A DNA stretch of 64,000 nucleotides, taken from Anaerofilum sp. An201. GTDB taxonomy: Bacteria > Bacillota > Clostridia > Oscillospirales > Ruminococcaceae. Shown one piece after another: positions 10,056 to 41,932 of the stretch (within the stretch, counting starts at the first letter, position 1; every line of letters begins with the position of its first letter). The position numbers and the translations under genes were made by a program. The stretch covers positions 1-64,000 of the forward strand of contig NZ_NFJT01000010.1 in assembly GCF_002160015.1 (NCBI RefSeq). The letters are read 5' to 3'. The notes under the pieces are model-generated. The model searched no databases. It saw nothing but the letters and a program-made list of their open reading frames with translations, and had not been told where the DNA came from.

Positions 10056-10062
10056 GTTTGTC

Positions 10063-10092
10063 AGCATACCACAGCGCCCGCGCACTTGTCAA
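10063..10092 (-). promoter_or_regulatory. ilvA/T-box promoter
   Basis: TTGACA (10087-10092), 18-base spacer, TATGCT (10063-10068) on minus. Confidence 0.75.
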
Positions 10093-10143
10093 GAATTTTT
10101 GCGTTCTCCGTCTTTTTTTGTGGAAATCGCTGCCTGCCGTTTG

Positions 10144-10172
10144 TTGCCGCGCCGGGCGCGATGTGCTACAAT
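10144..10172 (+). promoter_or_regulatory. Promoter of the DUF815 ATPase
   Basis: TTGCCG (10144-10149), 17-base spacer, TACAAT (10167-10172). Divergent from the ilvA promoter, about 50 bases apart. Confidence 0.7.
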
Positions 10173-10206
10173 AAAACCACAAACCCAAAGCGAGGTGATC
10201 TTTGTT

Positions 10207-11400: not shown

Positions 11401-11435
11401 AGTTTTCCACCAATTTTTCTTGTATTGTGCAAAAC

Positions 11436-11478
11436 GGGCCGCACCGGCTTTTCCTCCGGTGCGGCCCGCTCTTTTTTC
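11436..11478. terminator. Bidirectional terminator
   Basis: GGGCCGCACCGG (11436-11447) pairs with CCGGTGCGGCCC (11456-11467). T-runs lie on both sides: CTTTTTTC on plus and GTTTTG on minus. It serves the convergent DUF815 and trpZ-like genes. Confidence 0.85.
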
Positions 11479-11479
11479 T

Positions 11480-12283
11480 TTACTGCGCCGACAGCAGGAT
11501 GCGGTCGTTGTCCAGCTTTTTCCCCGCACCCGCGTGGAATTTCTCCAGCAGGTCGTCGGCGGTGAGCTTTGCGCGCTCCTCGCCCTTGACGTCCAGCACG
11601 ATGCGGCCGCTGTCCATCATGATGGTGCGGTTGCCCAGCTGGAGGCTGCTGGCCAGGTTGTGGGTGATCATCATGCAGGTGATCTGCTTTTCGGCCACGA
11701 TGCGCCGGGTGAGGTCCAGCACCTTTTCGGCGGTGGCGGGGTCCAGCGCGGCGGTGTGCTCGTCCAGCAGCAGCAGCTTCGGGGTCACCACCGTGGCCAT
11801 CAGCAGGGTCAGCGCCTGGCGCTGCCCGCCCGACAGAAGGCCCACCGGCTGCTTCATGCGGTCCTCCAGGCCCAGGTCCAGCTGGGCCAGCAGTTCCCGG
11901 AACCGCGCGCGGTCGCTTTTGCCGATGCGGGAAAAGCCCAGCCCGCTCTTTGCCGCCCGCAGGTAGGCCAGCGCCAGATTCTCCTCGATGGTCATGTGGG
12001 GGGCGGTGCCCTTGAGCGGGTCCTGGAACAGATGCCCGATGAAGGTGCTGCGCTTGTAGTCCGGCAGGAAGGTGATATCTTTGCCGTCCAGCAGGATGCG
12101 GCCGCTGTCGGCGATGAAGGCGCCGGTCACCGCGTTGAAGAGGGTGGATTTGCCCGCGCCGTTGGAGCCGAGGATGGTGACGAAATCGCCCTTGTCCAGA
12201 TGCAGCGAGAGGCCGCTGAGCGCCTTTTTCTCGTTCACGGTGCCGGGGTTGAAGGTTTTGCAGAGGTTCTGGATGGTGAGCAT
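11480..12283 (-). CDS. ABC transporter ATPase, TrpZ-like (COG1101)
   Basis: Nucleotide-binding subunit of the three-gene importer, 267 residues. Walker A GSNGAGKST, signature LLSGGQRQALTLLMA and Walker B LLLLDEHTAALDP are all present. The reading DEHTAALDP instead of DEPTSALDP is usual for COG1101. It starts two bases after the permease stop, with GGAGGGG overlapping the permease end. Under a Trp T-box it is best read as the ATPase of a tryptophan importer; ligand specificity is inferred from regulation. Confidence 0.9.
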   Translation of the reverse strand: MLTIQNLCKTFNPGTVNEKKALSGLSLHLDKGDFVTILGSNGAGKSTLFNAVTGAFIADSGRILLDGKDITFLPDYKRSTFIGHLFQDPLKGTAPHMTIEENLALAYLRAAKSGLGFSRIGKSDRARFRELLAQLDLGLEDRMKQPVGLLSGGQRQALTLLMATVVTPKLLLLDEHTAALDPATAEKVLDLTRRIVAEKQITCMMITHNLASSLQLGNRTIMMDSGRIVLDVKGEERAKLTADDLLEKFHAGAGKKLDNDRILLSAQ

Positions 12284-12285
12284 GG

Positions 12286-13191
12286 TCAATTCCCCTCCTT
12301 TTTGGCGGCGCGGCGGCGGCGTGCAAAGGCCGCCGCGTCCTTGATGGCCGGCCACGAGATGGCCACGCCCACGATCACGGCCGACACCAGCTTGAGGTTG
12401 CTGGCGCCCAGGCTGGAGCGCAGCGCGATGGAGATGATGAGGCGGTAGATGATGGAGCCCACCATCACGCCGATCACACAGCGGACCACCCCGCCGCGGC
12501 CCACGATCACCTCGCCGATGATCAGGCTGGCCAGGCCCACCACCACCATACCGGTGCCCAGCGTGATGTCGCTGAATTTCTGATGCTGGGCCATCAGGCC
12601 GCCGCTCAGCGCCACCAGCGCGTTGGCGATGCACAGGCCCACCGTGGTGGTGAAGGCCGGGTTGATGGAGGACGCCGCCACCATGTCGCGGTTGTCGCCG
12701 GTGGCACGGATGGACAGGCCCAGCTGGGTGCCCAGGAAAGCCACCATCGCCGCGCCGGCCGCCATCGCCACCAGGGCGGCGAGCACCAGCGCGCCCAGCT
12801 GTTCGCCGAAGATGCCCTCGGCCCAGCTGAACACGGTGTCCACCTTCAAAAGGGGCAGGGTGGCCTTGCCGCCCATCACCATCAGGTTGATGGAGTAGAG
12901 GCCGGTCATGGTGACGATGCCCGCCAGGATCGGCTGCACCCGGCATTTGGTCTGCAAAAAGGCGGTGACGCCGCCCGCCGCCGCGCCCGCCGCCATCGCG
13001 CACAGGATGCCCAGCAGCGGATGGCCCAGCGTGGCCAGCATGGCGGAGGCAGCCGCCCCCAGCGTGAAGCTGCCGTCGGTGGTGAGGTCGGCGATGTCCA
13101 GCACGCGGTAGCTCAGGTACAGAGCCAGCGCCACCAGTCCGTAGATGAAGCCCTGCTCGGCCGCGGTCTGCAGGGTAGCCAGTGAGATCAT
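12286..13191 (-). CDS. ABC transporter permease, TrpY-like (COG4120)
   Basis: Membrane subunit of 301 residues with about eight hydrophobic segments, resembling branched-chain amino acid (LivH-like) permeases. The N-terminal YLSYRVLDIADLTTDGSF is typical of COG4120. AAAGGAAG precedes the ATG. It lies between the binding protein and the ATPase in one transcript from the T-box promoter. Confidence 0.9.
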   Translation of the reverse strand: MISLATLQTAAEQGFIYGLVALALYLSYRVLDIADLTTDGSFTLGAAASAMLATLGHPLLGILCAMAAGAAAGGVTAFLQTKCRVQPILAGIVTMTGLYSINLMVMGGKATLPLLKVDTVFSWAEGIFGEQLGALVLAALVAMAAGAAMVAFLGTQLGLSIRATGDNRDMVAASSINPAFTTTVGLCIANALVALSGGLMAQHQKFSDITLGTGMVVVGLASLIIGEVIVGRGGVVRCVIGVMVGSIIYRLIISIALRSSLGASNLKLVSAVIVGVAISWPAIKDAAAFARRRRAAKKEGN

Positions 13192-13263
13192 AGCGCTCTT
13201 CCTTTCACACAGGCCTGCGCGGCAGGCCGGAGGGGCCGCCGCGCAGACGGATCGTTGTTGTTT

Positions 13264-14238
13264 TTATTCGGTGTAGGCAGACACATCCACGCCGATGGCG
13301 GCGGCGGTCTCCTCGTTCACCACCACGTTCACGTCGTCCATCGTCTGCACCGGCATGGTGGCGGGGTCGGCGCCTTTCAGCACCTCGATCACCATATCGG
13401 CCGTTTTCTGACCCAGATTGGTGTAGTTCACGCCCGCCGAGGCAAGGCCGCCGTCCTTCACCATGCTGTCGGCCGACACATACACCGGGATCTTTGCCTC
13501 GATGGCGGTCTCGGCCACCACGCTCATCGCCTTGGCCACCGTGTTGTCGATGGGGATGAAGATGGCGTCGCACTGCTCGGCCAGGGTCTGGGCCGCCTGC
13601 TGCACCTCGCTGGCGTTGGTGATGGCCGCTTCGGTGTAGGTCTTGCCCTCGCCGTCCAGGCAGGCCTTGGCGTTTTCGATCACGCCCGCACTGCTCGGCT
13701 CGCTGGTGCAGTAGAGCAGGCCGAAGTGGGAGGCGTCGGGGGTCAGTTCACCGGCCACCCGGAAGATCTCCTCCACCGGGATGTTGTCGCTGGTGCCGGT
13801 GACATTGCCGCCGGGGGCGTCGAGGCTGTTCAGCTGCAGGTCGGTGACCGGGTCGGTGACGGCCGAAAAGACGATGGGGATGTCCTCGGTGACGCCCGCC
13901 GCGCCCGCGGCCGCCGGGGTGGCGATGGCCACGATGGCGTCCACGCCGTCGCTGACGAACTTGGTGCAGATGCTGTTGATGTTGGTGGGGTCACCCTGGG
14001 CGTTCTGCACGTCCACCTCGATGGTGAGGCCCTCCTCGGCGGCGCGGGCCTCCAGCTGGGCCTCGAGCGCCGTGCGGATCTCGTCCAGCGAGGTGTGCTC
14101 CATATACTGGATCAGGCCCACATGCAGCACGCCGTCGTCGGCAGGGGCCGCGCCGCAGCCGGCCAGCAGCCCGGCAAACAGCGCGCCGGCAGACAGAACA
14201 CACAAAGCTTTTTTGCACACGTTGAAAAACCGTTTCAT
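13264..14238 (-). CDS. ABC substrate-binding lipoprotein, TrpX-like (COG2984)
   Basis: Surface receptor of the importer, 324 residues. The signal MKRFFNVCKKALCVLSAG leads to lipobox LLAGC, then a COG2984 periplasmic-binding fold (HVGLIQYMEHTSLDEIRTAL near the N-terminus). The start at 14238 follows AGGAG by eight bases. Members of this family under Trp T-boxes are called TrpX in streptococci and proposed to bind tryptophan. Regulation here by a TGG-specifier T-box agrees. A 31-codon ORF ends 14 bases upstream. Confidence 0.9.
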   Translation of the reverse strand: MKRFFNVCKKALCVLSAGALFAGLLAGCGAAPADDGVLHVGLIQYMEHTSLDEIRTALEAQLEARAAEEGLTIEVDVQNAQGDPTNINSICTKFVSDGVDAIVAIATPAAAGAAGVTEDIPIVFSAVTDPVTDLQLNSLDAPGGNVTGTSDNIPVEEIFRVAGELTPDASHFGLLYCTSEPSSAGVIENAKACLDGEGKTYTEAAITNASEVQQAAQTLAEQCDAIFIPIDNTVAKAMSVVAETAIEAKIPVYVSADSMVKDGGLASAGVNYTNLGQKTADMVIEVLKGADPATMPVQTMDDVNVVVNEETAAAIGVDVSAYTE

Positions 14239-14379: not shown

Positions 14380-14664
14380 CACAAAAACGGCCTGCCCTTG
14401 GTGATGTTTTTCCATCACAAGGACAGGCCGGAAATTTCCGTACACCTGCGGTGCCACCTTGTTTGCCGCCAACGAAAGCGGCCTCTCTGCGGGATGCCAG
14501 CACATCCCTGCTCTGTAACGGGAGCAGCCCGGCCCGGGATACTGCGCCTGCGCGGCGGTTCCCCCTGCCCTCAACGGTCCATTTGCCGCCCCGCTTTCTG
14601 CCCGTTTCCATCCTCCGGGCTCTCTGGAAGTGCGCTGTGCGGTGTGATCTCCGTCTCAACGGTT
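14380..14664 (-). ncRNA. T-box riboswitch, Trp-type, upstream of trpXYZ-like genes
   Basis: Stem I reads CCAGAGAGCCC...GGATGGAAACGGGC. The specifier loop has TGG (14579-14581) after AAA and before ACC. The T-box core AAGGTGGCACCGCAGG is at 14445-14460. The terminator stem CGGCCTGTCCTTGTGATG/CATCACCAAGGGCAGGCCG (14383-14435) ends in TTTTTG. Uncharged tRNA-Trp should turn the transporter on. Confidence 0.93.
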
Positions 14665-14671
14665 TACAAAC

Positions 14672-14700
14672 ATTTAACACGATTTTGCCGGGATTGTCAA
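14672..14700 (-). promoter_or_regulatory. Trp T-box promoter
   Basis: TTGACA (14695-14700), 17-base spacer, TTAAAT (14672-14677) on minus. Confidence 0.75.
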
Positions 14701-14867
14701 GAGCATATCGTCCAAAAAAATTGGGGGTTGGCCGCTGTTTTTTCGGCACACCGTTTGTTTTGCAAAAAAATTTCTCATTTTTTTGTGCACAGTGCAGCTT
14801 TGCCGTGTCGAATGTGGAAATTTTGTTACAGATAAAATCACATCTGGCGCTTTGGGATAAAATCGGG

Positions 14868-14873
14868 TATAAT
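14868..14873 (+). promoter_or_regulatory. -10 of the foldase gene
   Basis: Perfect TATAAT with a weak -35 region. About 50 bases before the TTG start. Confidence 0.55.
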
Positions 14874-14923
14874 AGGAAAAGATACGCGCAAGTATCCGCG
14901 CGAGAGATTGGAGGATCTTTGTT

Positions 14924-16087
14924 TTGAAACAACACATCACCAAAGCCCTGGGACTGGGCCTGAGCCTGGCCATGGCCGTTTCCATCACCGCCTGCTCGGG
15001 CGGCGCCGGCGGCACCCTCACCGACGCCATGAAAGAGGACGGCGCGTTCCTGACCGTGGGCGACAAGGCCGTTTCCTACGACGAATTCCGCTACTACTTC
15101 CTGAATGTGAAGGCCAGCCTGGAGCAGTCTGCTTCGTCCGGCGCCGCTTCCGGCTCGGAGGCTTCTTCCGCCTCCACCGGCGCCACCAACCTGGACCTGC
15201 CCAGCATCCTCACCCAGACCGAGGAAGCCCTGAAAAACAACCACGCGCTGAACACCTGGACCAAGGAGCAGGGTGTGGAGATGACCGAGGACGACCAGAG
15301 CGTGGTGGACCAGTATATCTCCCTGCAGGAGACCCAGATGGGCGGCGAGACCGCTTTTAACGAAGCGCTGCAGACCATCTACAGCACCCCCGACCTGTTC
15401 CGCACCATGATGGAGGAATCCTACCTGCAGGACAAGGCCATCAACGAGTGGTTCCTGAAAAACTACGCCGACCAGGTTGTGGAGGATATGCAGGCCGCCG
15501 ATCCCGGCTATGTGCGCGTGAAGCACATCCTGGTGCAGTTTGAGGACACCACCGAGGGCGCCGACCATTCCGCCGAAAAAGCCGAGGCCGAGGAAGCCCT
15601 GAACAAGGCCATCGCCGGCGAGGACTTCGATTCCCTGATCGACCAGTACAACGACGACCCCGGCATGCTCACAAACCCCGACGGCTACATCTTCACCACC
15701 GGCGAGATGGTGCAGGAGTTTGAGGACGCCTCCTTCGCGCTGGCCGAGAACGCCATCAGCACCGAGCTGGTGGAGACCAGCTATGGCTACCACATCATCC
15801 AGCGCCTACCCATCGACTACGACGTGGTGCGTGAGAGCGCGATGAACTACGCCAGCGAGGAAGTGATCAGCGAGGCCAACGAGAAACTGTCTTCCGAGCT
15901 GGACGCCGCCGCGGAGAAGGTGGAAGTGAAGCAGGGCCCCCAGTACAAGAACCTGACTGTGGACATCTTCAATTCCACTCTGCCCGCCCCCTCTTCGATG
16001 CCCTCCACCAGCAGCGAGGACACCAGCGAGCCGGCCAGTGAACCGGCCAGCCAGCCCGCCAGCGATTCCGCCAGCAGCGCTGCCTGA
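14924..16087 (+). CDS. Peptidyl-prolyl isomerase lipoprotein, PrsA/PpiC type
   Basis: Extracytoplasmic folding factor of 387 residues. It has a lipoprotein signal with lipobox SITAC (Cys24) and a SurA-like helical N-domain interrupted by a Ser/Ala-rich insert. A parvulin PPIC domain follows at about residues 200-290, starting YVRVKHILVQF and ending SYGYHIIQRL. The low-complexity Ser/Pro/Ala tail is odd but common in surface proteins. The start is TTG with GGAGGA eight bases upstream, leading straight into the signal peptide; no better ATG exists. It probably assists folding of secreted proteins. Confidence 0.88.
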   Translation: MKQHITKALGLGLSLAMAVSITACSGGAGGTLTDAMKEDGAFLTVGDKAVSYDEFRYYFLNVKASLEQSASSGAASGSEASSASTGATNLDLPSILTQTEEALKNNHALNTWTKEQGVEMTEDDQSVVDQYISLQETQMGGETAFNEALQTIYSTPDLFRTMMEESYLQDKAINEWFLKNYADQVVEDMQAADPGYVRVKHILVQFEDTTEGADHSAEKAEAEEALNKAIAGEDFDSLIDQYNDDPGMLTNPDGYIFTTGEMVQEFEDASFALAENAISTELVETSYGYHIIQRLPIDYDVVRESAMNYASEEVISEANEKLSSELDAAAEKVEVKQGPQYKNLTVDIFNSTLPAPSSMPSTSSEDTSEPASEPASQPASDSASSAA

Positions 16088-30737: not shown

Positions 30738-30826
30738 CATAACAACAATCGTTCTGGCGCTGTTCCGTTTGGCCCGCGATAAAAGGGCGCGGGGCGGCGC
30801 CTTTGTGCAACAAAGGAGGAAACGCC

Positions 30827-32530
30827 ATGCAACAGGATCTGCTGCGCCGCCTCATGCAGGTGGCCACCCACGAACGTCCGGCCCGGCGGGTGCTGAAAGG
30901 CGGACAGGTGCTGAACGTATTCACCGGCCGTCTGCTGGACGCCGACGTTGCCATCGAGGAGGGCATCATCGCGGCGGTCGGCCCGGACTACGCGGGCGAG
31001 GAGGAGATCGACTGCACCGGTCTGACCATCATCCCCGGCCTGATCGACGCCCACCTGCACATCGAGTCGGCGATGGTGCAGCCGGCCGAGCTGGCCAAGG
31101 TACTGCTGCCGCGCGGCACCACCACCCTCATCGCAGACCCGCACGAGCTGGCCAACGTGAGCGGCGAGGCGGCGATGGACTATCTGTTCGGCGCGGCCGA
31201 GACCTGCGGGCTGAATGTGTTCGTGATGGCCCCCTCCGCCGTCCCGGCCAGCCCCTTCGACCGGAACGGCGCGGGGGTGATCGGCGCCTCCCGTCTGGCG
31301 GCCTGGAAGGACCGGGCGCTGGGGCTGGGCGAGGTGATGTGCTTTCCGCAGGTGGTGGCGGGAGACCCGGCCGCGCTGGACAAACTGGACGCCTACGCCG
31401 GGCGGCCCATCGACGGCCATGCCCCCGGTCTGCGCGGGCCGGCGCTGCAGGCCTACCGGCTGGCGGGCATCCAGACCGAGCACGAGGCGTCCGACTTTGC
31501 CGAGGGGCTGGAGAAGCTGGAGGCGGGCTTCGCGCTGCTGGTGCGGGAGGGCAGTGCCGCCCACAATCTGGAGCCGCTGGTGACCGGCCTGCTGAAACAC
31601 CGCATCCCCACCGGCCGCTGCGCCTTCTGCACCGACGACAAGCACCTGGCCGACATCTTCACACAGGGCCATATCGACCACTGTGTGCGCCGCGCCATCG
31701 AACTGGGGATGCCGTTTGCCCAGGCGGTGCAGATGGCCACCATCCAGCCCGCCCGCATCTATGGGCTGAACGACCTCGGCGCGGTGGCGCCCGGATGCAG
31801 GGCCGACCTTGTGCTGCTGGAAAACGCCGCCCGGATGACCATCCGCGCGGTGTACAAGGACGGCGTTCCGGCCGCCGAGCGCCTGGCGGATGCGCAGGCC
31901 TTCCCGGTGCCGGACAGCCTGCTGCACACGGTGAAGCTGCCCGCGCTGACTGAGGAGGACCTGGCGCTGTACTGCGCCGCCGAGACCGACGCCATCCAGC
32001 CGGTCCCCCGCCAGCTGCTCACCCGCCGGGTGAGGGCGTCGGTGCAGCGGGACGGGGCCGGGCGGTTTCTCCCGGACGCGCGGTACTGCAAGCTGTGCGC
32101 CGTGCAGCGGCACAGCGGCGAAAAACGCCTGGCGGTGGCCCCCCTCGAGGGCTTCGGTATCCGGGGCGGCGCGCTGGCCACCACGGTGGCGCACGACTCC
32201 CACAACATCGTGGCCGCCGGCGACAACGACGCCGACCTGCTGGCCGCCATGCGGGCGCTGGCCGAAGCAGGCGGCGGCTATGCCATCGCGCGCGGCGGCG
32301 AAGTGCATCTCCTTCCCCTTCCGGTGTGCGGACTGGTGAGCCTGGAGAGCGGCGAAGCGGTGGCCCGGCACACCGACGAGATGCTGGCCATTGCCCGGGA
32401 AATGGGCATCCCGGCCGGGGTGGACCCGTTCATCACCCTGTCGTTTTTGTCGCTGCCGGTGATCCCGGCCGTCCGCCTGCTGGACGGCGGCCTGTTCGAC
32501 GCCGAAAATTTCCGCTGGATCGTGCAATAA
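30827..32530 (+). CDS. ade: Adenine deaminase
   Basis: Converts adenine to hypoxanthine and ammonia in purine salvage. The 567-residue product is full length for the bacterial Ade family. It has the amidohydrolase metal motif IDAHLHIES, later metal and active-site segments DGHAPGL, ALVREGSAAHN-like LLVREGSAAHN and FCTDDKH, and a C-terminal Ade domain with TTVAHDSHN. The start at 30827 follows GGAGG by seven bases. It has its own promoter but is co-oriented with the ABC transporter, so readthrough is possible. Confidence 0.95.
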   Translation: MQQDLLRRLMQVATHERPARRVLKGGQVLNVFTGRLLDADVAIEEGIIAAVGPDYAGEEEIDCTGLTIIPGLIDAHLHIESAMVQPAELAKVLLPRGTTTLIADPHELANVSGEAAMDYLFGAAETCGLNVFVMAPSAVPASPFDRNGAGVIGASRLAAWKDRALGLGEVMCFPQVVAGDPAALDKLDAYAGRPIDGHAPGLRGPALQAYRLAGIQTEHEASDFAEGLEKLEAGFALLVREGSAAHNLEPLVTGLLKHRIPTGRCAFCTDDKHLADIFTQGHIDHCVRRAIELGMPFAQAVQMATIQPARIYGLNDLGAVAPGCRADLVLLENAARMTIRAVYKDGVPAAERLADAQAFPVPDSLLHTVKLPALTEEDLALYCAAETDAIQPVPRQLLTRRVRASVQRDGAGRFLPDARYCKLCAVQRHSGEKRLAVAPLEGFGIRGGALATTVAHDSHNIVAAGDNDADLLAAMRALAEAGGGYAIARGGEVHLLPLPVCGLVSLESGEAVARHTDEMLAIAREMGIPAGVDPFITLSFLSLPVIPAVRLLDGGLFDAENFRWIVQ

Positions 32531-32607: not shown

Positions 32608-33042
32608 ATGCATCCTTGTGAAGACCGCAAAAACCCCACCGACTTCGGCCCCCATCCGTTCACCGTGAACATCACCTGCGCCGCCCGGGAAAACGACTGC
32701 TACCGCCGCGCCCTGTGGACCGGCTGCAACCTGCAGGCGACCCTGATGTCCATCCCGCCCTGCGGCGAGACCGGCCAGGAGATGCACGACGACGCCGACC
32801 AGATGCTCTACATCGTGCAGGGCAGCGGCAAGCTGTTCATGGGCTTCGGCCCCTGCTGCATGCCGTTCTGCAAGGAAGTGAAGGAGTGCGACGCCATCTT
32901 TGTGCCCGCCGGCTGCTGGCACAACCTGAAAAATACCGGGCGCTGCTCGCTGAAGCTGTTCTCGGTGTATGCGCCGCCCCACCATTCGCGCGGCACCATG
33001 CAGTTTGACAAACCGAAGGAAGACTCCGAGTCTGAAGAGTAA
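32608..33042 (+). CDS. Cupin-domain protein
   Basis: Small cytoplasmic protein of 144 residues with one cupin barrel. Motif 1 lies around GQEMHDDADQMLYIVQGSGKLFMG and motif 2 around DAIFVPAGCWHNLKN, keeping the His/Glu-type metal ligands only in part. It is unusually rich in cysteine near the N-terminus and middle (CCMPFC). GGGAG precedes the ATG. Cupins of this kind may be isomerases, dioxygenases or sensors; no specific role can be assigned. Confidence 0.8.
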   Translation: MHPCEDRKNPTDFGPHPFTVNITCAARENDCYRRALWTGCNLQATLMSIPPCGETGQEMHDDADQMLYIVQGSGKLFMGFGPCCMPFCKEVKECDAIFVPAGCWHNLKNTGRCSLKLFSVYAPPHHSRGTMQFDKPKEDSESEE

Positions 33043-33304: not shown

Positions 33305-33346
33305 ACGCCCTGCAGGCAAATCTGCTTGCAGGGCGTTGCTTTTTTC
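33305..33346. terminator. Bidirectional terminator
   Basis: ACGCCCTGCA (33305-33314) pairs with TGCAGGGCGT (33327-33336). TTTTTT follows on plus and ATTTTG on minus. It ends the sulfatase gene. Confidence 0.75.
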
Positions 33347-34793
33347 AGCAGTTGGGCAGAGTCGCGTTGGACAGGCAGTCGCGCGGGGTGCAGCCCACGA
33401 TCAGCTGTTCGCCGTCGGAGTAGCCCTCCTCGCAGCCGGCCAGCGTGTCGATCAGGTACTGCCGCAGCTGGGCGATGCGGGGGATATACTGCGCGTCGCG
33501 GATGGCGTTGTGGGTCTCGTTCGGGTCCTTGACCAAATCGAAATACTGCTCCTCGCCGGTCTGGCTGAACCAGACGTATTTGTCGGTCTTGGTCACGATG
33601 AACTGGTGCGACTTCTCGCCGTAGACGTGCTCGCCGTGCAGCCACTGGCGGTCGTGCCCGTGCAGGATGCTCTGGCCGTCCAGCGTGGCCGGGATGGGAG
33701 CGCCCGCGATGTCCAGCGTGGTGGGCATCACGTCCCGCAGCTCCACCAGCGTGTCGTCGGTCTCGCCCCAGCGGCGGCCCAGCAGGGCTTCCGGCCCGCT
33801 CACGATCATCGGGATGTGGATGCTGCCCTGGTACGGCACCGATTTGCGGTCCAGGCAGTGGTCGGACAGCATCTCGCCGTGGTCGGAGGTGAACAGGATG
33901 ATGGTGTTGTCCATCAGCTTGTGCTCGATCAGCGCCATCAGGATGCGGCCGATCTGGTGGTCCACATGGGTGATGCAGGCGTAGTAGCCGATCATCTGCT
34001 CCCGGATCAGGTCGGGGTCGATGGGGCCGGTGATGTTGTTGAATACGCGCCCGTTTTTGCGCAGAAGTTCTGCGTCATCCCAGTCTCCCCGCACCGGCGG
34101 GCGCAGGTCTTTGTTCTTATACATATCAAAATAGTGCGCAGGAGCGTCATACGGAGCGTGCGGACGCACAAAGCTGGCCATCAAAAAGAAGGGCTGGCGC
34201 GGGTCGCGGCGGCGCAAAAAATCAATGCTCTGCTGCGCCACCCAGTTGGTGGGATGGTATTTTTCCTCATACGGCCAGGGGCGGGCGATCCAGCCGTTGC
34301 AGTCCAGGCCGGTGTCGGTGACGTCGGCGTTTACGCCCAGCTGGCCGCGCAGCCAGTGGAAATAGTCGTCGGCGATCAGCTGGTTTTCGCTGGACGGCAC
34401 ATCCGCGAAGCGGTATTCGTGCAGGTAGCCGTCGTGCAGCTCCACGTTGTGGAACCCCGCGTAGTGGCGCAGCGGGTGCACATGCATCTTGCCCACGCAC
34501 TGGGTGTAGTATCCAGCCTTGGACAGCTCGCCGGCCATCGTGCAGCCGTAGTTCCAGTTCACCCGGTCCTGGTAACCCACCCGGCCGGTGTGCCGCTGGG
34601 ACAGCCCGGTGTGCAGGATCGCGCGGGCCGGCACACAGGTGGGGCAGGAGGAATAGGCGTTGGGATAGTACACGCCGTGCGCCGCCAGATGGTCGATGTA
34701 GGGCGTTTTGACGTCCGGGTGTCCGGCGATGCCCATGCAGTCGCCGCGCATCTCGTCGGTCATGATCAATACGATATTGGGACGATTTTGCAT
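33345..34793 (-). CDS. Cytoplasmic Cys-type sulfatase
   Basis: Predicted arylsulfatase-family hydrolase of 482 residues that releases sulfate from a sulfated sugar. The modification motif C-V-P-A-R (Cys53) is present, so activity needs conversion of Cys53 to formylglycine by a radical-SAM maturase not found here. Metal-site segments include IVLIMTDEMRGD near the N-terminus and LFTSDHGEML in the C-terminal half. No signal peptide, unlike most mucin sulfatases. AAGGAG lies seven bases before ATG 34793. Directly downstream of the GH112 phosphorylase, suggesting desulfation of imported disaccharides; this is inference. Confidence 0.88.
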   Translation of the reverse strand: MQNRPNIVLIMTDEMRGDCMGIAGHPDVKTPYIDHLAAHGVYYPNAYSSCPTCVPARAILHTGLSQRHTGRVGYQDRVNWNYGCTMAGELSKAGYYTQCVGKMHVHPLRHYAGFHNVELHDGYLHEYRFADVPSSENQLIADDYFHWLRGQLGVNADVTDTGLDCNGWIARPWPYEEKYHPTNWVAQQSIDFLRRRDPRQPFFLMASFVRPHAPYDAPAHYFDMYKNKDLRPPVRGDWDDAELLRKNGRVFNNITGPIDPDLIREQMIGYYACITHVDHQIGRILMALIEHKLMDNTIILFTSDHGEMLSDHCLDRKSVPYQGSIHIPMIVSGPEALLGRRWGETDDTLVELRDVMPTTLDIAGAPIPATLDGQSILHGHDRQWLHGEHVYGEKSHQFIVTKTDKYVWFSQTGEEQYFDLVKDPNETHNAIRDAQYIPRIAQLRQYLIDTLAGCEEGYSDGEQLIVGCTPRDCLSNATLPNC

Positions 34794-34819
34794 TGTTTTT
34801 CTCCTTTTTCGCCGCACAG

Positions 34820-34847
34820 AAAAACCCCAGGGTGTGCCCCTGGGGTT
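34820..34847 (-). terminator. GH112 gene terminator
   Basis: ACCCCAGGG (34824-34832) pairs with CCCTGGGGT (34838-34846), then TTTTC on minus. It lies between the phosphorylase and sulfatase genes, so the sulfatase may depend on readthrough. Confidence 0.75.
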
Positions 34848-34892
34848 CTGCGTCAGCGGTCAAAGCCGGTCGGCCAGGGGCCGGGTGCCGGT

Positions 34893-37052
34893 TCAGATCT
34901 CGTACCAGATGATCTCGTTGGCGTCCAGATGCAGCTCGAAGCTGCTGCCGTCGCCCTTGTATACGGTGGTGTCCTGCGGCTCGTAGGTGTTGTTCACCAC
35001 GCAGTACTTGCCGTTCTTCACGTAGGCATGTACTTCCACGTTGTAGTTGGAGGAGAACCACTTGTGCAGGCCGTCCTCGTCGTGGCTGGCCCACAGGATG
35101 GCGCGGTACAGCACGCGGCTGTTCTCGAAGGTGTAGGGCAGGCCGCTGATGTAGACGGCGCGGCCGTCGCCGAACTCGTTGACAGCCATCTGCACTTCCT
35201 TGTCGCGCTGCACCAGGATGGTGGCGCCCTCTTTGGCATAGATGCTCTTTTTGCCCTCGCCGAAGTCCACCTCGCCCTTGCAGTCGGCCAGGATGAAGTG
35301 ATCGGGATGCTGATCCCAGTTGTACTTGTCGTAGCCCAGGGTGAAGCCGGTCTCCTTCTCCACGCCCAGCACGCCGGACAGCTGCAGGAAGCGGCCCTGG
35401 TACTGGTGGCCGGAGGGCTCGCCCACGCCGATGATGCCGCCGCCGTCATGCACGAAGGCCTTGATGGCGGAGGAGATGGCGGGGTCTTCCCAGGCGTCGC
35501 CGCCGGTATGCGCGGTGTCGGCGTCGCCCACGTTGATGATGACGTCGATTCCTTTCAGCAGCTCGGGGTCGGCCTTGATGTCGTCAAAGCTGATGAACTT
35601 CACGTCGAACGGAGCGCCGGACAGCGCCTCGATCACGCCGGCGTAGCTGTAGTTCTGCTTCTGGTACAGCGCATGGTGCACCATGTGGCAGCCCCAGCTG
35701 CGGCACTTGCCCCAGCTGTTCAGCACGGCAACGGTCTTGACGGTGTAGGGAGTGGTGCCCTTGATGTTGGTGTACAGCAGGCGGAACTCGTTGCAGACGC
35801 TTTCCACGTAATCCATGAACTCGGGGAACTGCAGCGCCAGCTTCAGGTAGCCGCCGTAGCCGATGCGGTCGATGGGGCTGCGCAGGATGGCGCGGCGGGC
35901 GGTGACCCAGTTTTCCTTCGCCTCGCGCACGGGGTCGCCGCCCTCGTGGAAGGTGTCGGGGAAGAAGTAGGGCAGGAAGCGGCCCTCGGTGTACTTCACG
36001 CCGGGGATGTCGGAGATCAGGCGCAGGGTGGCGCCGTTGCCCACGCTGCCTACCACGGCGTCCAGGCCGATGGTCTTGAACTCGTCCATAAACGGCTCGG
36101 TGCCGATGAAATGGTCGCCCAGGAACATCATGGCTTCCTTGCCGCACTCGTGGGTGATGTCCACCATCTCCTTGGCCAGCTTGGCCACCTCGCGGCGCTG
36201 GAAGGCCATGAAGTCCTTGAACTCCTTCGAGGGAGCGCGGTACTGGTTGTTGTAGTAGCCCTGGTCCACGATGAACTCGGGACGGAACTTGTAGCCCACT
36301 TCCTGCTCGAACTGCTCGAGGATGTAGGGGGAGACGCTGGCGGAATAGCCGTACCAGTCCACGTATTTCTCGCGCTTCAGCTCATCGAAGATCAGGGTGA
36401 ACTGGTGGAAAAAGGTGGTGTAGCGGATCACGTTCACATAGGGATGCTCGGCAATGAACTTGCGCAGACGCTCCATGGTGAACTTGTGGGTCTTGGGCTG
36501 GCGCACGTCGAAGGTGATCTGGTGCTCGAAGTTGGTCCAGCCGTTGGTCACGGCGTTGTACATATGTACGGGGTCCCAGATCAGGTAGGCCAGGAAGGCT
36601 ACGGTGTAGTCATGATAGGGCTCCGACTGGATGGTCACGCTGCCGTCGGCGTAGCTCCACTTGTCGGTGGGGACAACCTCGCCGGTGGTGCGGTCCATCA
36701 CTTCCCACCAGCGCTTGATGTCATCGCGGGTGTTCACCTCCATCAGCTCGGGGCTGATGCCCTGCATCAGGCTAATGGACAGGCTGTCGCCGGTGGCGGT
36801 GTGGAAGCCGGTCATGATGTAGCACTGCTGCACCTCGTCCGGGTTCGCCTTCGCCCAGGCGTTGTCCTTGCGGGTGGTGTAGTAGGTGGAGTAGATCTTT
36901 GCGTCGGCGTTCTTCAGCTCCTCGGGGAACTCGGTGCCGTCGCAGTCGCGGATCGCGTCGGCGCCCCATTTCTCCAGCACTTCCAGGGTTTCGGGGATCA
37001 CGTCCATATCGGTGGGGATCGTTACGCGGCCCTTTTTCAAAATATCGCTCAT
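34893..37052 (-). CDS. 1,3-beta-galactosyl-N-acetylhexosamine phosphorylase (GH112)
   Basis: Intracellular enzyme that cleaves galacto-N-biose or lacto-N-biose with phosphate, giving galactose 1-phosphate and GalNAc or GlcNAc. The 719-residue length and sequence fit GH112: N-terminal TIM-barrel region starting GRVTIPTDMDVIPETLEVLEKWGADAIRDCDGTE, with acidic DCDGTE near the active site, then middle and C-terminal beta domains. AAGGAGG precedes the ATG. It follows sugar-ABC permease genes and a 67-residue membrane ORF. Preference between GNB and LNB cannot be set by eye. Confidence 0.93.
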   Translation of the reverse strand: MSDILKKGRVTIPTDMDVIPETLEVLEKWGADAIRDCDGTEFPEELKNADAKIYSTYYTTRKDNAWAKANPDEVQQCYIMTGFHTATGDSLSISLMQGISPELMEVNTRDDIKRWWEVMDRTTGEVVPTDKWSYADGSVTIQSEPYHDYTVAFLAYLIWDPVHMYNAVTNGWTNFEHQITFDVRQPKTHKFTMERLRKFIAEHPYVNVIRYTTFFHQFTLIFDELKREKYVDWYGYSASVSPYILEQFEQEVGYKFRPEFIVDQGYYNNQYRAPSKEFKDFMAFQRREVAKLAKEMVDITHECGKEAMMFLGDHFIGTEPFMDEFKTIGLDAVVGSVGNGATLRLISDIPGVKYTEGRFLPYFFPDTFHEGGDPVREAKENWVTARRAILRSPIDRIGYGGYLKLALQFPEFMDYVESVCNEFRLLYTNIKGTTPYTVKTVAVLNSWGKCRSWGCHMVHHALYQKQNYSYAGVIEALSGAPFDVKFISFDDIKADPELLKGIDVIINVGDADTAHTGGDAWEDPAISSAIKAFVHDGGGIIGVGEPSGHQYQGRFLQLSGVLGVEKETGFTLGYDKYNWDQHPDHFILADCKGEVDFGEGKKSIYAKEGATILVQRDKEVQMAVNEFGDGRAVYISGLPYTFENSRVLYRAILWASHDEDGLHKWFSSNYNVEVHAYVKNGKYCVVNNTYEPQDTTVYKGDGSSFELHLDANEIIWYEI

Positions 37053-37114
37053 GTTGGTCCTCCTTGGGCGTATTTGTCTGCATTGCTGTTTTGCAGATTT
37101 TTTTCGTTACAGCA

Positions 37115-37318
37115 TTATTTCGTATAGGGTTTATTGTACAAATACAGAAGAACCAGAATACCGGCCAGGCCCAGCAGCTGTACGCCCAGGCCGATGATTC
37201 CCTGTGTCATGTCGGACATGAAGCCCATGCTGTGGCCAATAATAACCAGTGCAATGCACACCAGAGCCGCAAGGATGCCCAACGCTACCTTTACTTTTTT
37301 AAGGGTATATTCATTCAT
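37115..37318 (-). CDS. 67-residue two-helix membrane protein in the disaccharide locus
   Basis: Small membrane protein with two helices (about residues 9-28 and 39-60), a Lys-rich start and end, and a glycine-rich second helix. GGGAGG lies eight bases before the ATG. It sits 15 bases after the MalG-type permease gene and 62 bases before the GH112 gene, clearly inside the operon. I do not recognise a family. Possible roles are a transporter accessory subunit or a stability factor; both are speculative. Confidence 0.7.
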   Translation of the reverse strand: MNEYTLKKVKVALGILAALVCIALVIIGHSMGFMSDMTQGIIGLGVQLLGLAGILVLLYLYNKPYTK

Positions 37319-37333
37319 TGTTTGCGCCTCCCA

Positions 37334-38230
37334 TTAGCCTTTCAGACCGCCGACAGTCATGCCTTCGGTGAGCTTTTTCTGCACACAGATATACAGCAGC
37401 AGTGTGGGGATCATTACCAGTACCAGACCGGCATACATCTGACCGTACTCTGCCTTCGCGTTCTGCGCCTTCATCAGGTTCAGCAGGCCAACCGGCAGGG
37501 TGCGCGGACCACTGGGATCGGTCAGCATGGTCATGGAGATGATGTACTCGTTCCAGTAGGCCAGGAACTCGAACAGGATCACGGTGATGATGCTGGGCTT
37601 CGCCATCGGCAGAATAATGCGCACCATCGTGGTGAAATAGCCTGCGCCGTCCACATAGGCGGCTTCTTCGTAGTCCTTAGGCAGGGTTGCCAGATAGCTG
37701 CTGAGCAGGTAGATGGTGAAGGGCAGCGTGGTAGACGCCAGCACCAGAGACACCACAAACGGGTTGTTCAGGAAGAAGGTCTTGCCAAACCACTGGTTCA
37801 GCAGACGGTCGCCGGCCACAAACATCAGGAAGATGGGCACGACGATGTAGTTTACGTTAATAAACAGACCGGCCATAAAGCCGCCGTTCAGGACCTTGCG
37901 GCCCACAAAGTTATAGCGGCTGAGAACATAGGCAGCCGGCAGCGCAACCACCAGCAGGATTGCCAGCGACAAAGCAGTGATCATAACAGAAGTCATGAAG
38001 TAGTCGCCCATGCGGGCCTTTGTCCAGGCATCCACAAAGTTCTGGAAATGGAATCCTTCCGGCAGGGTAAAGGGGTTGCCGTAAAATTCTCTGTTCTCTT
38101 TCACCGAGGCCATGAATACCCACGCCACGGGAACGATGATCGAAATCGCCAGCAGAGCCAGGATGACGTAGATGACCACGCGGATCACAACGTCATTCTT
38201 CTCGCCGACCGCTCTTTCCTTTTTAAGCAT
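37334..38230 (-). CDS. Carbohydrate ABC permease, MalG type
   Basis: Second membrane subunit of the sugar importer, 298 residues, six helices. It has the family coupling motif DYEEAAYVDGAGYFTTMVRIILPMAKP. ATG 38230 is about nine bases from AGGAAGG; a GTG three codons upstream abuts the site. It lies 21 bases after the MalF-type gene. Uptake of galactosyl-N-acetylhexosamines is inferred from the GH112 gene downstream. Confidence 0.9.
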   Translation of the reverse strand: MLKKERAVGEKNDVVIRVVIYVILALLAISIIVPVAWVFMASVKENREFYGNPFTLPEGFHFQNFVDAWTKARMGDYFMTSVMITALSLAILLVVALPAAYVLSRYNFVGRKVLNGGFMAGLFINVNYIVVPIFLMFVAGDRLLNQWFGKTFFLNNPFVVSLVLASTTLPFTIYLLSSYLATLPKDYEEAAYVDGAGYFTTMVRIILPMAKPSIITVILFEFLAYWNEYIISMTMLTDPSGPRTLPVGLLNLMKAQNAKAEYGQMYAGLVLVMIPTLLLYICVQKKLTEGMTVGGLKG

Positions 38231-38251
38231 TCTCTGCACCCTTCCTTTCGC

Positions 38252-39142
38252 TTACATTTCCAGCGGATCGCGCTTGGTAACCTTATTCACAATCGCTGCC
38301 AGAGCAAAGGAGAAGGTGAATACCACCACGCCAATCGCCATACCGTAGCCGTATGTAGAGTTGGTGTACGCCTGCTTGTACATGTAGCTCAGGAACACCT
38401 CGGTAGCGCCGTCGGGGCCGCCGTTGGTCATGGCCTTTACAAACAGGAAGCTCATGTTGATGTTGGAAATAATGAAGAAAGTGAGGGTTGTACGGATGTT
38501 GGTCCAGATCAGCGGCAGGGTGATGCTGAAGAACTGGGTGGTGCGGGAAGCACCTTCCAGATTGGCGCTCTCGTACAGGCTCTCGGAAATAGCAGACATA
38601 CTGGCCATATACATAACCATGTAGTAACCGATCGCCTGCCAGACCATCGCAATAGCCAGGCTGTAGATAACAATCTTCTGGTCGCCCATCCAGTACACCG
38701 GCTCATCGGTGATGTGCAGCAGATTCAGGATGCTGTTCAGCAGACCGTTGTTGGCGTCGTAGATGGCGCTGAAAATGGCGCTGATAACAACCACAGACAG
38801 AATGTTGGGGATGTAGAAGATAATACGGAAGAAGTTCTGGCCACGCAGCTTTTCACGGGTCAGGATGGCCGCAAACAGCAGCGCGAAGAAGATCGTCACC
38901 GCTGTCACAACCACGATCAGCAGAATGCTGTTGCGGCAGGCACGGAAGAAGTTTTCATCCTTCAGCAATGCAGCAAAGTTACTCAGACCCACAAATTCCT
39001 TATTCGCGGAATATCCGCCCCAGCGGAGCAGGGACATACGGAATACGTTAAAAGTGGGAATTACAAGAAAAATGAACGCCAGAATTGTGGCAGGCGCAAC
39101 GCAGGCCACAATAAACCGACTGCGTCCTTTATTTTTCTGCAT
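38252..39142 (-). CDS. Carbohydrate ABC permease, MalF type
   Basis: First membrane subunit, 296 residues, six helices. It has the UgpA/MalF-type N-terminus (APATILAFIFLVIPTFNVFRMSL) and coupling motif ESLYESANLEGASRTTQFFSITLPLI. GGAG precedes ATG 39142. Separated from the binding-protein gene by 180 bases containing a hairpin, which usually lowers permease expression relative to the receptor. Confidence 0.9.
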   Translation of the reverse strand: MQKNKGRSRFIVACVAPATILAFIFLVIPTFNVFRMSLLRWGGYSANKEFVGLSNFAALLKDENFFRACRNSILLIVVVTAVTIFFALLFAAILTREKLRGQNFFRIIFYIPNILSVVVISAIFSAIYDANNGLLNSILNLLHITDEPVYWMGDQKIVIYSLAIAMVWQAIGYYMVMYMASMSAISESLYESANLEGASRTTQFFSITLPLIWTNIRTTLTFFIISNINMSFLFVKAMTNGGPDGATEVFLSYMYKQAYTNSTYGYGMAIGVVVFTFSFALAAIVNKVTKRDPLEM

Positions 39143-39176
39143 CTTGTCATCTCCATTCCACAGATTTCATGTAGAA

Positions 39177-39214
39177 AGCGGTGAGCAAAAGGGCTACCCT
39201 TTACTCACCGCTTA
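39177..39214 (-). terminator. Intercistronic hairpin between receptor and permeases
   Basis: AGCGGTGAG (39177-39185) pairs with CTCACCGCT (39204-39212), with an inner AAAGGG/CCCTTT, then TTCT on minus. Probably a partial terminator or mRNA stabiliser. Confidence 0.6.
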
Positions 39215-39322
39215 GCCATTCCGTTACCTACGCAGCAAGCACATATCAATCCTATGGCTGCCTATTTGTTTCCGGGGCATCGCGACACCCGGATATCCAT
39301 TCATAGATGCGCAGATGTTTGA

Positions 39323-40678
39323 TTACATGGCACCGGCCATGGTCTTGCAGGCGTCCTGCATGTCAGCCCACCACTGATCCACGGTCTTGTTGCCGTTGAC
39401 AACGCTGTCCATGGTGAAGCAGAAGATCTGCTTGAAGTTCATGCCCTCAACAGGCTTGGTGGAAGCGAAGGTGCCGATCGCAGCCTTGGCGCCGTTGTCG
39501 TATACGCTGTAGTACACAGCCTGGTCAGCGTCCAGCTTATCGGTCATACCGGTGATGGGCTGCACAGCGCCGCCCTCTTTGGCGAAGATCTCAGCAGCCT
39601 CGTCGCTGTACAGGTAGCTGATGAACAGCTTGGCCAGCTCCTGGTTGGAAGAACCGGAGGGAACCCAGCACTGCTCGAAGAAGGTGTAGCTGTAACGGTC
39701 GCCGTCTTTCTCCATAGCGGGCAGAGCCATGAAGCCCCACTCGAAGCCGTCAGCGCGAGGAGCGTCCGCCATCTCGCCGATAACCCAGTTGCCGTTGGGC
39801 ATGAACAGGGCCTTGTTGTCCAGAATCAGCTGCTGGTTCTTCTGGAAGTTGTCGTTGTTGCCGTTAGCGGTGGTAGATTTCTCGGTGTTCTCGGCCAGCT
39901 TGCCCAGAACCTCGTACATCTTGCCCATCTCGTCGCTGGCCCAGGTAGCCTCGTCATACTGCAGAGCCTTGTTGAAGAACTCCTGACCGCCCACCTCGGG
40001 GATCATAGCGTAGATGAAGGCATCCAGATAACCGGCAGTGGGATAGGTGAACAGAGGAATGTCGGTCTGATCAGCCAGAGCGAAGAACTCGTCCCAGGTG
40101 GTGGGCAGGGTCAGCTCGCCGCCGCCCTCGGTGAAGTTGGCCTTGTTGTAGAACAGGCCGCAGGGACCGTAGAACATGGGCATCATGTACACATGCTCAT
40201 CGTTGTAGGGGTTGGTGGTCAGGTTGCCGGTGAAGCCGGGGATGATCTTCTCGCCCACGGTCACGTCCTCGCCCAGAACCTTCATGTCCAGAACGTCGGT
40301 CAGATCCAGCAGAGCGTTCTCCTTCAGCATGGTCTCGGGCAGGGCCTTCTCACGGCCGGTAGCCAGATGAACCACGTCGTAGAAGTTGCCGGCCTTCATC
40401 TGGGGATCGATCACGTCCTCCAGGTTCTTGTCGGTGGTCAGCTCCACGGTGGCGCCGGTTTTGGCCTCGAAGCCCTCGGCGATCTTTTCCCACATGGCGG
40501 TGCCGTAGGCGGTCTCGATGGCGGCGACTTTCAGAGTCTGGCCAGCGTACTCGCCCTCACCACCGGTGCTGCCGGAAGCAGGAGTGCTGGCGGGGGTATT
40601 GGAAGAAGACGGAGAGCCGCAGGCTACCAGACCGGCGGCCATCACAGCGGACAGACCAAGAGCAATTGCTTTTTTCAT
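39323..40678 (-). CDS. Carbohydrate ABC substrate-binding lipoprotein
   Basis: Receptor of 451 residues of the SBP_bac_1 family. Signal MKKAIALGLSAVMAAG leads to lipobox GLVAC, then a Ser/Thr/Pro linker and the two-lobe fold (TLKVAAIETAYGTAMWEKIAEGFEAKTGA). AAGGAGG precedes ATG 40678; the longer in-frame start has no signal peptide. First gene of the operon with MalF, MalG and GH112 genes, so lacto-N-biose or galacto-N-biose is the likely ligand. No ATPase gene is present; such importers share an MsmK-like ATPase encoded elsewhere. Confidence 0.9.
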   Translation of the reverse strand: MKKAIALGLSAVMAAGLVACGSPSSSNTPASTPASGSTGGEGEYAGQTLKVAAIETAYGTAMWEKIAEGFEAKTGATVELTTDKNLEDVIDPQMKAGNFYDVVHLATGREKALPETMLKENALLDLTDVLDMKVLGEDVTVGEKIIPGFTGNLTTNPYNDEHVYMMPMFYGPCGLFYNKANFTEGGGELTLPTTWDEFFALADQTDIPLFTYPTAGYLDAFIYAMIPEVGGQEFFNKALQYDEATWASDEMGKMYEVLGKLAENTEKSTTANGNNDNFQKNQQLILDNKALFMPNGNWVIGEMADAPRADGFEWGFMALPAMEKDGDRYSYTFFEQCWVPSGSSNQELAKLFISYLYSDEAAEIFAKEGGAVQPITGMTDKLDADQAVYYSVYDNGAKAAIGTFASTKPVEGMNFKQIFCFTMDSVVNGNKTVDQWWADMQDACKTMAGAM

Positions 40679-41074: not shown

Positions 41075-41932
41075 ATGAGCAGTTACCGTTTTGATTTCAT
41101 CACCGCTCCCACTTCGGACAAACCGTATCAGCTGCTGTATGTGGCGTCGTCCTGCTACGACAAGGACTGGAACAGCCTGATGCACACCCACAAGTGCACC
41201 GAGCTGTTCTACTGCGTGCATGGGCGCGGGCAGTTCCACACATCCGACGGCACCTTTGATGTGAAGAAGGACGACCTGGTCATCATCAACGCCGACGTGG
41301 AGCATGCCGAATCCAGCATGGCGTCGCACCCGCTGGAATACCTGGTGCTGGGCGTGCAGGGGCTGAACTTCCGGTTCGACAGCGCCCGCGGCGACGCCGG
41401 ATACGACGTGCTGAATTTTGAACAGAACCGGGACGAGCTGCTGTTCTACCTGCAAAGCATCCTGCGAGAGGTGGACACACAGGAGTTCCGCTATGAGGAT
41501 ATGTGCCAGCGCATCCTGGAGATCCTGCTGATCCAGGTGCAGCGGTTTGCCAACGTGAAGATCTGCACCAGCCTTCTCGCCGCCGAAAAGCAGCATTCCA
41601 CCAACCGCAACTGCGCGCTGATCCGCCAGTACATCGACGAGCATTTCAGCGAGCCCATCACGCTGGACACCCTGGCCCAGATGGTGCACATCAACAAATA
41701 CCATCTGGTGCGCACCTTCCAGAAGGAATACGGCATCACCCCCATCAACTACCTGATCGAGCGGCGCTTGGAGGAGAGCCGCTTCATGCTGAAGAACACC
41801 AACTATTCCGCCTCACAGATCGTGTCGCTGCTGGGGTTCTCCTCGTCCAGCTATTTTTCGCAGTGCTTCCGCCGCAAGGAGCACATGTCCCCTTCCCAAT
41901 ACCGCGAGATGTACGCCCACAAGGAGGACTGA
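41075..41932 (+). CDS. AraC-family regulator with cupin-like sensor
   Basis: Transcription factor of 285 residues. The N-terminal cupin-like sugar-sensing domain includes HTHKCTELFYCVHGRGQF. The C-terminal double helix-turn-helix spans about residues 185-282 (ITLDTLAQMVHINKYHLVRTFQKEYG and the second HTH ending SSSSYFSQCFRRKEHMSPSQYR). GGGAGG precedes ATG 41075. It is divergent from the sugar operon and probably activates it on sensing its sugar. Confidence 0.9.
   Translation: MSSYRFDFITAPTSDKPYQLLYVASSCYDKDWNSLMHTHKCTELFYCVHGRGQFHTSDGTFDVKKDDLVIINADVEHAESSMASHPLEYLVLGVQGLNFRFDSARGDAGYDVLNFEQNRDELLFYLQSILREVDTQEFRYEDMCQRILEILLIQVQRFANVKICTSLLAAEKQHSTNRNCALIRQYIDEHFSEPITLDTLAQMVHINKYHLVRTFQKEYGITPINYLIERRLEESRFMLKNTNYSASQIVSLLGFSSSSYFSQCFRRKEHMSPSQYREMYAHKED

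Follow-up and report, generated by a model that had tools for sequence, protein, structure and literature searches.

We analyzed a stretch of 64,000 nucleotides (nt; the window) from Anaerofilum sp. An201 (contig NZ_NFJT01000010.1), which contains a locus for the import and phosphorolysis of the mucin/milk disaccharides lacto-N-biose (LNB) and galacto-N-biose (GNB) with a sulfatase gene at its end. The locus is probably an LNB/GNB utilization operon of a gut Clostridium to which a cytoplasmic sulfatase was added, such that sulfated LNB or GNB would be imported, desulfated and subsequently phosphorolyzed. This interpretation is sequence-based and builds on the gene content, the catalytic residues, the missing leader of the sulfatase, the recurrent linkage of the genes and an LNB/GNB-type binding site in the importer. 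From these features we infer that the imported substrate is sulfated, in which order the steps run and what a TauE/SafE protein does. The genes of the locus all lie on the minus strand, from position 40678 down to 33345, with a regulator in divergent orientation:

41075 to 41932, plus strand: divergent AraC-family regulator with a cupin-like sensor domain (domain search)
39323 to 40678, minus strand: lipoprotein-type solute-binding protein, TIGR03850 (family score and alignment to BiGFL-BP, 9h0n)
38252 to 39142, minus strand: sugar ABC permease 1 (domain search)
37334 to 38239, minus strand: sugar ABC permease 2 (domain search)
37115 to 37318, minus strand: small DUF6903 protein of 67 amino acids (aa) with hydrophobic stretches (PF21844, 54.7 bits, cut-off 24.2)
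34893 to 37052, minus strand: GH112 beta-1,3-galactosyl-N-acetylhexosamine (HexNAc) phosphorylase, i.e., a lacto/galacto-N-biose phosphorylase, of 719 aa (TIGR02336, PDB match, aligned D313)
34823 to 34847, minus strand: terminator- or attenuator-like hairpin AACCCCAGGG-GCACA-CCCTGGGGTT with the tail TTTCTG, between the GH112 and sulfatase genes (folding)
33345 to 34793, minus strand: formylglycine sulfatase of type A, 482 aa, CVPAR at residues 53-57, predicted to be cytoplasmic (Pfam, NCBIfam, inspection and structure model)

The sulfatase gene follows the GH112 gene in the same orientation after a spacer of 99 nt. A preliminary description had reported a CVPAR-containing sulfatase without a signal peptide behind the GH112 gene of a disaccharide import locus, and both parts of that description hold. 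The protein belongs to the S1 formylglycine type according to the Pfam Sulfatase domain (163.9 bits) and NF010322 (633.3 bits, cut-off 481), computed on a stretch of 489 residues, while its NF052527 score (460.7 bits) is below the cut-off of 850. A structure model built from a 56-sequence alignment (pLDDT 93) places the first beta strand at residues 6-12 of a protein starting with MQNRPNIVLIMTDEMRGD. By inspection, a signal peptide does not fit because the catalytic fold begins at the N-terminus, and the sole further in-frame upstream start (GTG at 34817) would add MRRKRRKT. The structures nearest to the model are EfAS, a Mn-dependent arylsulfatase of E. faecium (9koq; Z 54.7, root-mean-square deviation 1.6 over 467 residues), and BT1918, an S1_46 host-glycan sulfatase of Bacteroides (7oz8; Z 51.2), with the next structure at Z 40.6. 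EfAS shares 42% identity with the window sulfatase, and its catalytic residues (D13, C53, R57, K102, H104, H212, D304, H305, and K317) are conserved in all 48 type A rows checked, out of 80 at hand. Its Q21, in contrast, corresponds to E14 in the window sulfatase. BT1918 is 38% identical but differs in the pocket, where L124/H125 of the window sulfatase align with R-R and the following ten window residues are absent. With its intact catalytic residues, the window sulfatase is a predicted sulfate-ester hydrolase.

The GH112 protein reaches 973.3 bits for TIGR02336 (cut-off 560.3), contains three Pfam domains and matches a lacto-N-biose phosphorylase in the PDB with 740 bits. Residue D313 of the solved phosphorylase, which we take to be the general acid Asp, is aligned in the window protein. 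The binding protein, starting with an ATG at 40678 and carrying by eye a lipoprotein-type leader, scores 597.7 bits for TIGR03850 (cut-off 299) and is 47% identical (189/403) to BiGFL-BP (Blon_0883) of B. infantis, a binder of LNB, GNB, Le-a, and H1. In the excerpts available of its description, BiGFL-BP binds LNB and GNB with dissociation constants of 68.5 nM and 169 nM, respectively, and holds the C4/C6 hydroxyls of galactose and of HexNAc by D210 and E327 (PMC12345172). The window protein keeps T205, Y208, D210, W290, E294, and E327, but differs at the fucose cavity (S100/T101 replaced by R/E) and at F44 (I), Q98 (T), G47 (A), and S163 (C). Five of these contacts (Y208, D210, W290, E294, and E327) are invariant in all 41 binding-protein rows, which include three pairs that are one record twice. 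The arginine replacing S100 occurs in all 24 rows of the importer subtype of the window, 10 of them sulfatase-linked and 14 unlinked. The binding site thus supports LNB/GNB as the sugar and gives no support for sulfate. No ATPase gene was seen within the operon.

We surveyed 297 genomes of the host family, 29 of which encode a type A sulfatase and 36 a GH112 protein above the respective cut-off. GH112 is present in 14 of the 29 genomes with a type A sulfatase vs. 22 of the 268 genomes without (Fisher p 2.7e-7, a value that is too small as the genomes are related). The neighborhoods of all 42 GH112 matches in the 36 genomes, including the window, were read. A sulfatase is found within 3 kb at ten of these 42 loci, amounting to 11 genes vs. 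0.78 expected from the density of sulfatase domains (176 matches in the 36 genomes); the Poisson value of 8e-10 is again too small given the relatedness. Orthologues of the window gene occur at four GH112 loci (window, L084, L101, and L102), and four others have a type B sulfatase directly upstream of GH112 (L114, L124, L130, and L133). Locus L115 encodes a type C sulfatase between permease and GH112 and a type D sulfatase downstream, while L116 encodes a type D sulfatase. Types B and D are 50-52% identical to each other. A single orthologous group for all linked sulfatases was rejected, since the identity between types A, B/D, and C does not exceed 31%. In all 12 sulfatases inspected (the 11 linked ones and that of L083, see below), a possible start lies 2-8 residues ahead of the first strand, so none of them needs a leader. 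The preliminary description had regarded a lack of conservation of the gene pair as evidence against its proposal; on the contrary, sulfatase and GH112 are neighbors again and again in Oscillospiraceae, Lachnospiraceae, and Clostridiaceae, and the sulfatases involved represent several distantly related subfamilies.

The locus of a second Anaerofilum (L083 and L148, the same record) has a similar organization. The AraC regulator, the binding protein (90% identity), the permeases, DUF6903, and the sulfatase (88%) are kept there, while GH112 is gone from this site and lies elsewhere with another importer (L109). Downstream, an apparently secreted protein of 1211 aa is encoded, the start of which resembles a leader and the tail an anchor by eye. 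It matches 7v6m (545.6 bits), deposited as a fibronectin type III domain-containing protein, and the lacto-N-biosidases 6kqs (447.7 bits) and 5gqc (416.5 bits). We presume that the family label GH136 applies to these lacto-N-biosidase-type matches. The association of importer and sulfatase can therefore persist in the absence of GH112, and LNB is the likely sugar. The GH112 operon of L149, where a type A sulfatase follows GH112, encodes a related protein that matches the same structures and in which no leader was seen, and lacto-N-biosidase-type profile matches (856 bits) were found in the GH112 operons of L116 and L117. Matches to a lacto-N-biosidase in the genome of the window reach just 31-37% and are candidates at most. 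In L148 (12972-15511), two consecutive open reading frames (ORFs) both match the GH136-type profile, like the parts of a single split gene, and an intact one follows.

A search of genome contigs with seven type A sequences gave 79 loci for the best 80 of 139 relatives. GH112 is located within 10 kb of the sulfatase in 34 of the 79 loci, in 24 of the 43 with flanks of at least 9 kb on both sides, and precedes it by at most 150 nt in eight of the 79. In the linked Lachnospiraceae (Mediterraneibacter, Blautia, Sellimonas, and Claveliimonas) the sulfatase gene is frequently transcribed divergently from an importer or GH112, and in L166 it is placed between the permeases and GH112. The sulfatase of Fournierella massiliensis DSM 100451 (L152) is 74% identical to that of the window. 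On a quick tree of the 80 sulfatases, in which many forks are weak, the linkage label changes 13 times vs. a mean of 26.9 after shuffling. The linkage is thus clustered on the tree but repeatedly gained or lost. Our own profiles detected NahK-like kinases near the sulfatase at 24, uridylyltransferase-like proteins at 20, and GalE-like proteins at 13 of the 79 loci. With its importer and cytoplasmic GH112, and with these three genes near relatives, the system resembles the LNB/GNB pathway of bifidobacteria and gut Firmicutes. It differs in the added cytoplasmic sulfatase and, in some relatives, an anaerobic sulfatase-maturating enzyme (anSME) and TauE.

The preliminary description had proposed a search for such a maturase in the genome. 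We found one predicted anSME over the cut-off (TIGR03942, 382.6 bits, cut-off 349.45) on another contig (C67, 113104-114174), and the single TauE match of this genome is also located on another contig. Among the 79 loci, a home-made profile detected anSME in 16, nine of them with GH112 in view. TauE/SafE is encoded in 15 loci, 11 of them with GH112 in view, and within 203 nt of the sulfatase in 14 of the 15. Pfam confirmed three of the TauE proteins and one anSME. By TIGR03942, the anSME of L206 is just over the cut-off (349.8 bits) and that of L116 clearly over it (379.4 bits). Among the 41 family GH112 loci other than the window, the anSME profile matched just two, L115 and L116, each of which encodes a type D sulfatase. 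The sulfatase ORF of L206 (Claveliimonas bilis, 9989-13381) overlaps a TauE/SafE ORF by 4 nt and is followed by a convergent anSME gene and by GH112, forming a compact desulfation cassette. In L132, a TauE homologue (14583-15353) lies about 4.3 kb from a GH112 locus where no sulfatase is in view, and TauE near GH112 is therefore not strictly tied to the sulfatase.

Based on these organizations, we propose the following pathway. LNB/GNB-type fragments of host glycans, some of them sulfated, would be released outside the cell, by the apparently secreted lacto-N-biosidase in the sibling species and perhaps through cross-feeding in others. The TIGR03850 binding protein would capture the fragments for import, and a sulfatase matured by anSME would remove the sulfate inside the cell, after which GH112 would phosphorolyze the bare disaccharide. 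The sulfate would leave the cell, in some Lachnospiraceae perhaps via a TauE/SafE exporter whose gene neighbors that of the sulfatase. The HexNAc of LNB/GNB cannot carry a 3-O sulfate; should the disaccharide be the substrate of type A, a terminal 3-O-sulfogalactose would therefore fit best. As a guess, type A may remove the sulfate at O3 of the terminal galactose and types B/D a 6-O sulfate from HexNAc. Only tentatively do we extend this pathway, as one for sulfated type-1/core-1 blocks of host glycans, to several families of gut Clostridia, which would share intact import of sulfated LNB/GNB, cytoplasmic desulfation by independently recruited sulfatases (A for 3-O-galactose, B/D for 6-O-HexNAc), an anSME encoded in the cluster in some, export by TauE/SafE, and GH112 as the last step.

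The sulfatase gene of the window is preceded by a hairpin. The spacer between GH112 and sulfatase has a whole-fold energy of -51.4 kcal/mol (z -4.2) with a strong GC-rich hairpin at 34847-34823, which a consensus terminator scan did not list, its T run being too short. A hairpin precedes the sulfatase in all nine spacers folded (the window and eight relatives), with z values from -1.9 to -5.5 and sequences that are unlike each other. The tandem GH112-sulfatase pair of L162, outside this set, has a spacer of 10 nt, which leaves no room for a hairpin. A similar structure (z -3.6) occurs between the binding protein and permease genes. Because about 30 nt remain between hairpin and ATG, read-through with reduced output is likelier than a separate sulfatase promoter, and the latter is unsupported as a candidate.

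Several observations weigh against the uptake and intracellular desulfation of sulfated LNB/GNB. The hairpin itself stands between the sulfatase and the rest of the operon. The nearest characterized enzymes are the promiscuous arylsulfatase EfAS and the 3S-N-acetylglucosamine (GlcNAc) sulfatase BT1918. None of 13 binding-protein sites compared over the 41 rows is specific to sulfatase-linked loci as a sulfate adaptation, and contacts to D210/E327 would disfavor 6-O sulfates. Of the preliminary proposal that a sulfated disaccharide is imported, the disaccharide part is thus retained through the LNB/GNB contacts, while for the sulfate part the sulfatase-linked binding sites are not consistently different from the unlinked ones. 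Within the family, 24 of the 29 type A sulfatases, several on short contigs, adjoin neither GH112 nor its importer. Their neighbors vary, with an ABC exporter-like gene and DUF1294 in L088, an alpha-L-fucosidase in L099, and fucose-isomerase-like and aldolase genes with another importer in L105. At eight of the ten family GH112 loci that include a sulfatase, no anSME is in view (the profile was run over nine, that of the window being on another contig). The 79 loci were found by patterns from Oscillospiraceae sequences and overlap the family set, and are not independent. Outside the family, a sulfatase is in view at one of 34 GH112 loci (L239), 3.2 kb downstream, 45% identical to type A and with CISAR instead of CxPxR. 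Limousia, a mucin user, encodes GH112 in most genomes, and none of the nine sulfatases of one isolate rose on mucin according to the available part of PMC12997984. The sulfatase as a universal partner of GH112 was rejected on the count of one in 34, with several contigs being short. Many of these 34 GH112 proteins are just 35-50% identical to that of the window, and their sugar may differ. The count therefore points to a trait of particular gut lineages and not of GH112 itself.

Alternatively, the sulfatase could be a general, EfAS-like promiscuous cytoplasmic aryl/alkyl sulfatase that serves sulfur scavenging or cleaves small esters and would lie near GH112 owing to common mobility or the ecology of the gut, with no action on LNB/GNB. 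Of the solved proteins, EfAS is nearest, and it cleaves p-nitrophenyl sulfate, estrone sulfate, and caerulein, as given in the accessible part of PMC12421950. Its pocket residues are largely kept in type A, with Y82, L132, and N174 the same in 48/48 rows, H133 in 43, and R323 in 40. The unlinked type A homologues (e.g., L088) and the 13 label changes on the tree fit this explanation as well. We nevertheless consider it unlikely, since linkage is far above expectation and involves several sulfatase subfamilies, the sibling keeps importer and sulfatase without GH112, and anSME and TauE lie in the same clusters of many relatives. In the same accessible part of PMC12421950, moreover, GlcNAc, N-acetylglucosamine, galactose, glucose, and mucin are all unmentioned, so that the substrates assayed with EfAS do not seem to have included sugar sulfates.

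A second alternative reverses the order of the steps: GH112 would cleave an imported disaccharide sulfated on HexNAc, and the sulfatase would then act on sulfated GlcNAc or N-acetylgalactosamine. This resembles B. breve UCC2003, for which PMC7326374, in the part available, cites an intracellular glycosulfatase for mucin-derived GlcNAc-6-sulfate (Egan 2016). The best PDB matches for one protein each of types B and D point in the same direction, being the mucin-desulfating sulfatase 7p24 (listed as S1_11, 6S-GlcNAc) and the GlcNAc-6-sulfatase 5g2v. BT1918, second nearest to the window enzyme, is listed as a 3S-GlcNAc sulfatase in the consulted part of PMC10154620. Such a specificity misfits LNB/GNB, however, because O3 of HexNAc is already occupied there, and the sulfatase of L083/L148 accompanies the importer and not GH112, which makes phosphorolysis before desulfation quite unlikely for the window enzyme. 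A chance neighborhood of sulfatase and GH112 was rejected on counts far above expectation, within the sampling limits stated above.

Desulfation inside the cell after import is a likeness between B. breve and the pathway proposed for the window, whose sulfatase gene is linked to importer genes. B. breve, as far as the cited part describes it, uses a sulfated monosaccharide, whereas the window encodes a disaccharide operon with phosphorolysis, in Clostridia. Pathways with GH112, importers of LNB, and S1 sulfatases have been described before, and a GH112-linked cytoplasmic sulfatase appears to be new: among the search results, covered in part, no paper was seen to describe sulfatases associated with GH112 loci or the uptake of sulfated LNB/GNB. 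The available parts of PMC5583593, PMC11323728, and PMC12997984 do not mention the addition of a sulfatase to the LNB/GNB pathway. In the same parts, mucin-desulfating sulfatase genes are listed, among the genomes of PMC5583593, solely in Bacteroidetes and A. muciniphila, and R. torques has GH112 and was found without sulfatases (PMC11323728).

If the proposed pathway is true, a cytoplasmic route in gut Clostridia would change who counts as a user of sulfated mucin, and sulfated mucin sugars would be used privately, with no desulfated sugar freed for competitors. Sulfation is regarded as protecting colonic mucin, and desulfation has mostly been studied via exported enzymes of Bacteroides and Akkermansia. 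Clostridial cytoplasmic sulfatases would gain a testable substrate, and the fate of the sulfate (export by TauE, feeding of sulfate reducers) would become testable.

The neighboring genes of the window and its relatives show some further features. Homologues of the AraC regulator also recur beside related importers, and DUF6903 sits between the permeases and GH112 at many loci (36-85% identity). A cupin protein (32608-33042) and an adenine deaminase (30803-32530), both on the plus strand and convergent with the sulfatase, give no sign of belonging to the locus. Type A and type C sulfatases are encoded side by side near GH112 in L193 (18268-21284) and L212 (9863-13012). Type C relatives in L193, L212, and L199 are 50-58% identical to the type C protein of L115, and type C is nearest, weakly, to a carrageenan sulfatase. 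In L180 (12688-14208) and L181 (6931-8397), a further sulfatase subfamily with CSPAR (24-28% identity to types A-D) is located beside GH112, with type A nearby. GH112 of Clostridium celatum appears as two separate ORFs (L160, 1337-3496), and in L162 (4586-7648) GH112 and the sulfatase are directly preceded by a LanM-like gene (DUF4135, LANC_like).

The window genome contains 12 sulfatase-domain matches, two of which are pieces of one apparently broken gene over two frames (C45, 94033-95072; L232). Some frames of more than 600 aa among these matches may, as a guess, be lipoteichoic-acid-synthase-like. Other leaderless sulfatases follow sugar ABC-type genes at L229 (3562-9377) and L230 (4195-17828). 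In L230, two consecutive sulfatases are followed by a protein of 1870 aa with a leader-like start, a stretch of which shares 31% identity with the lacto-N-biosidase-like protein of L149.

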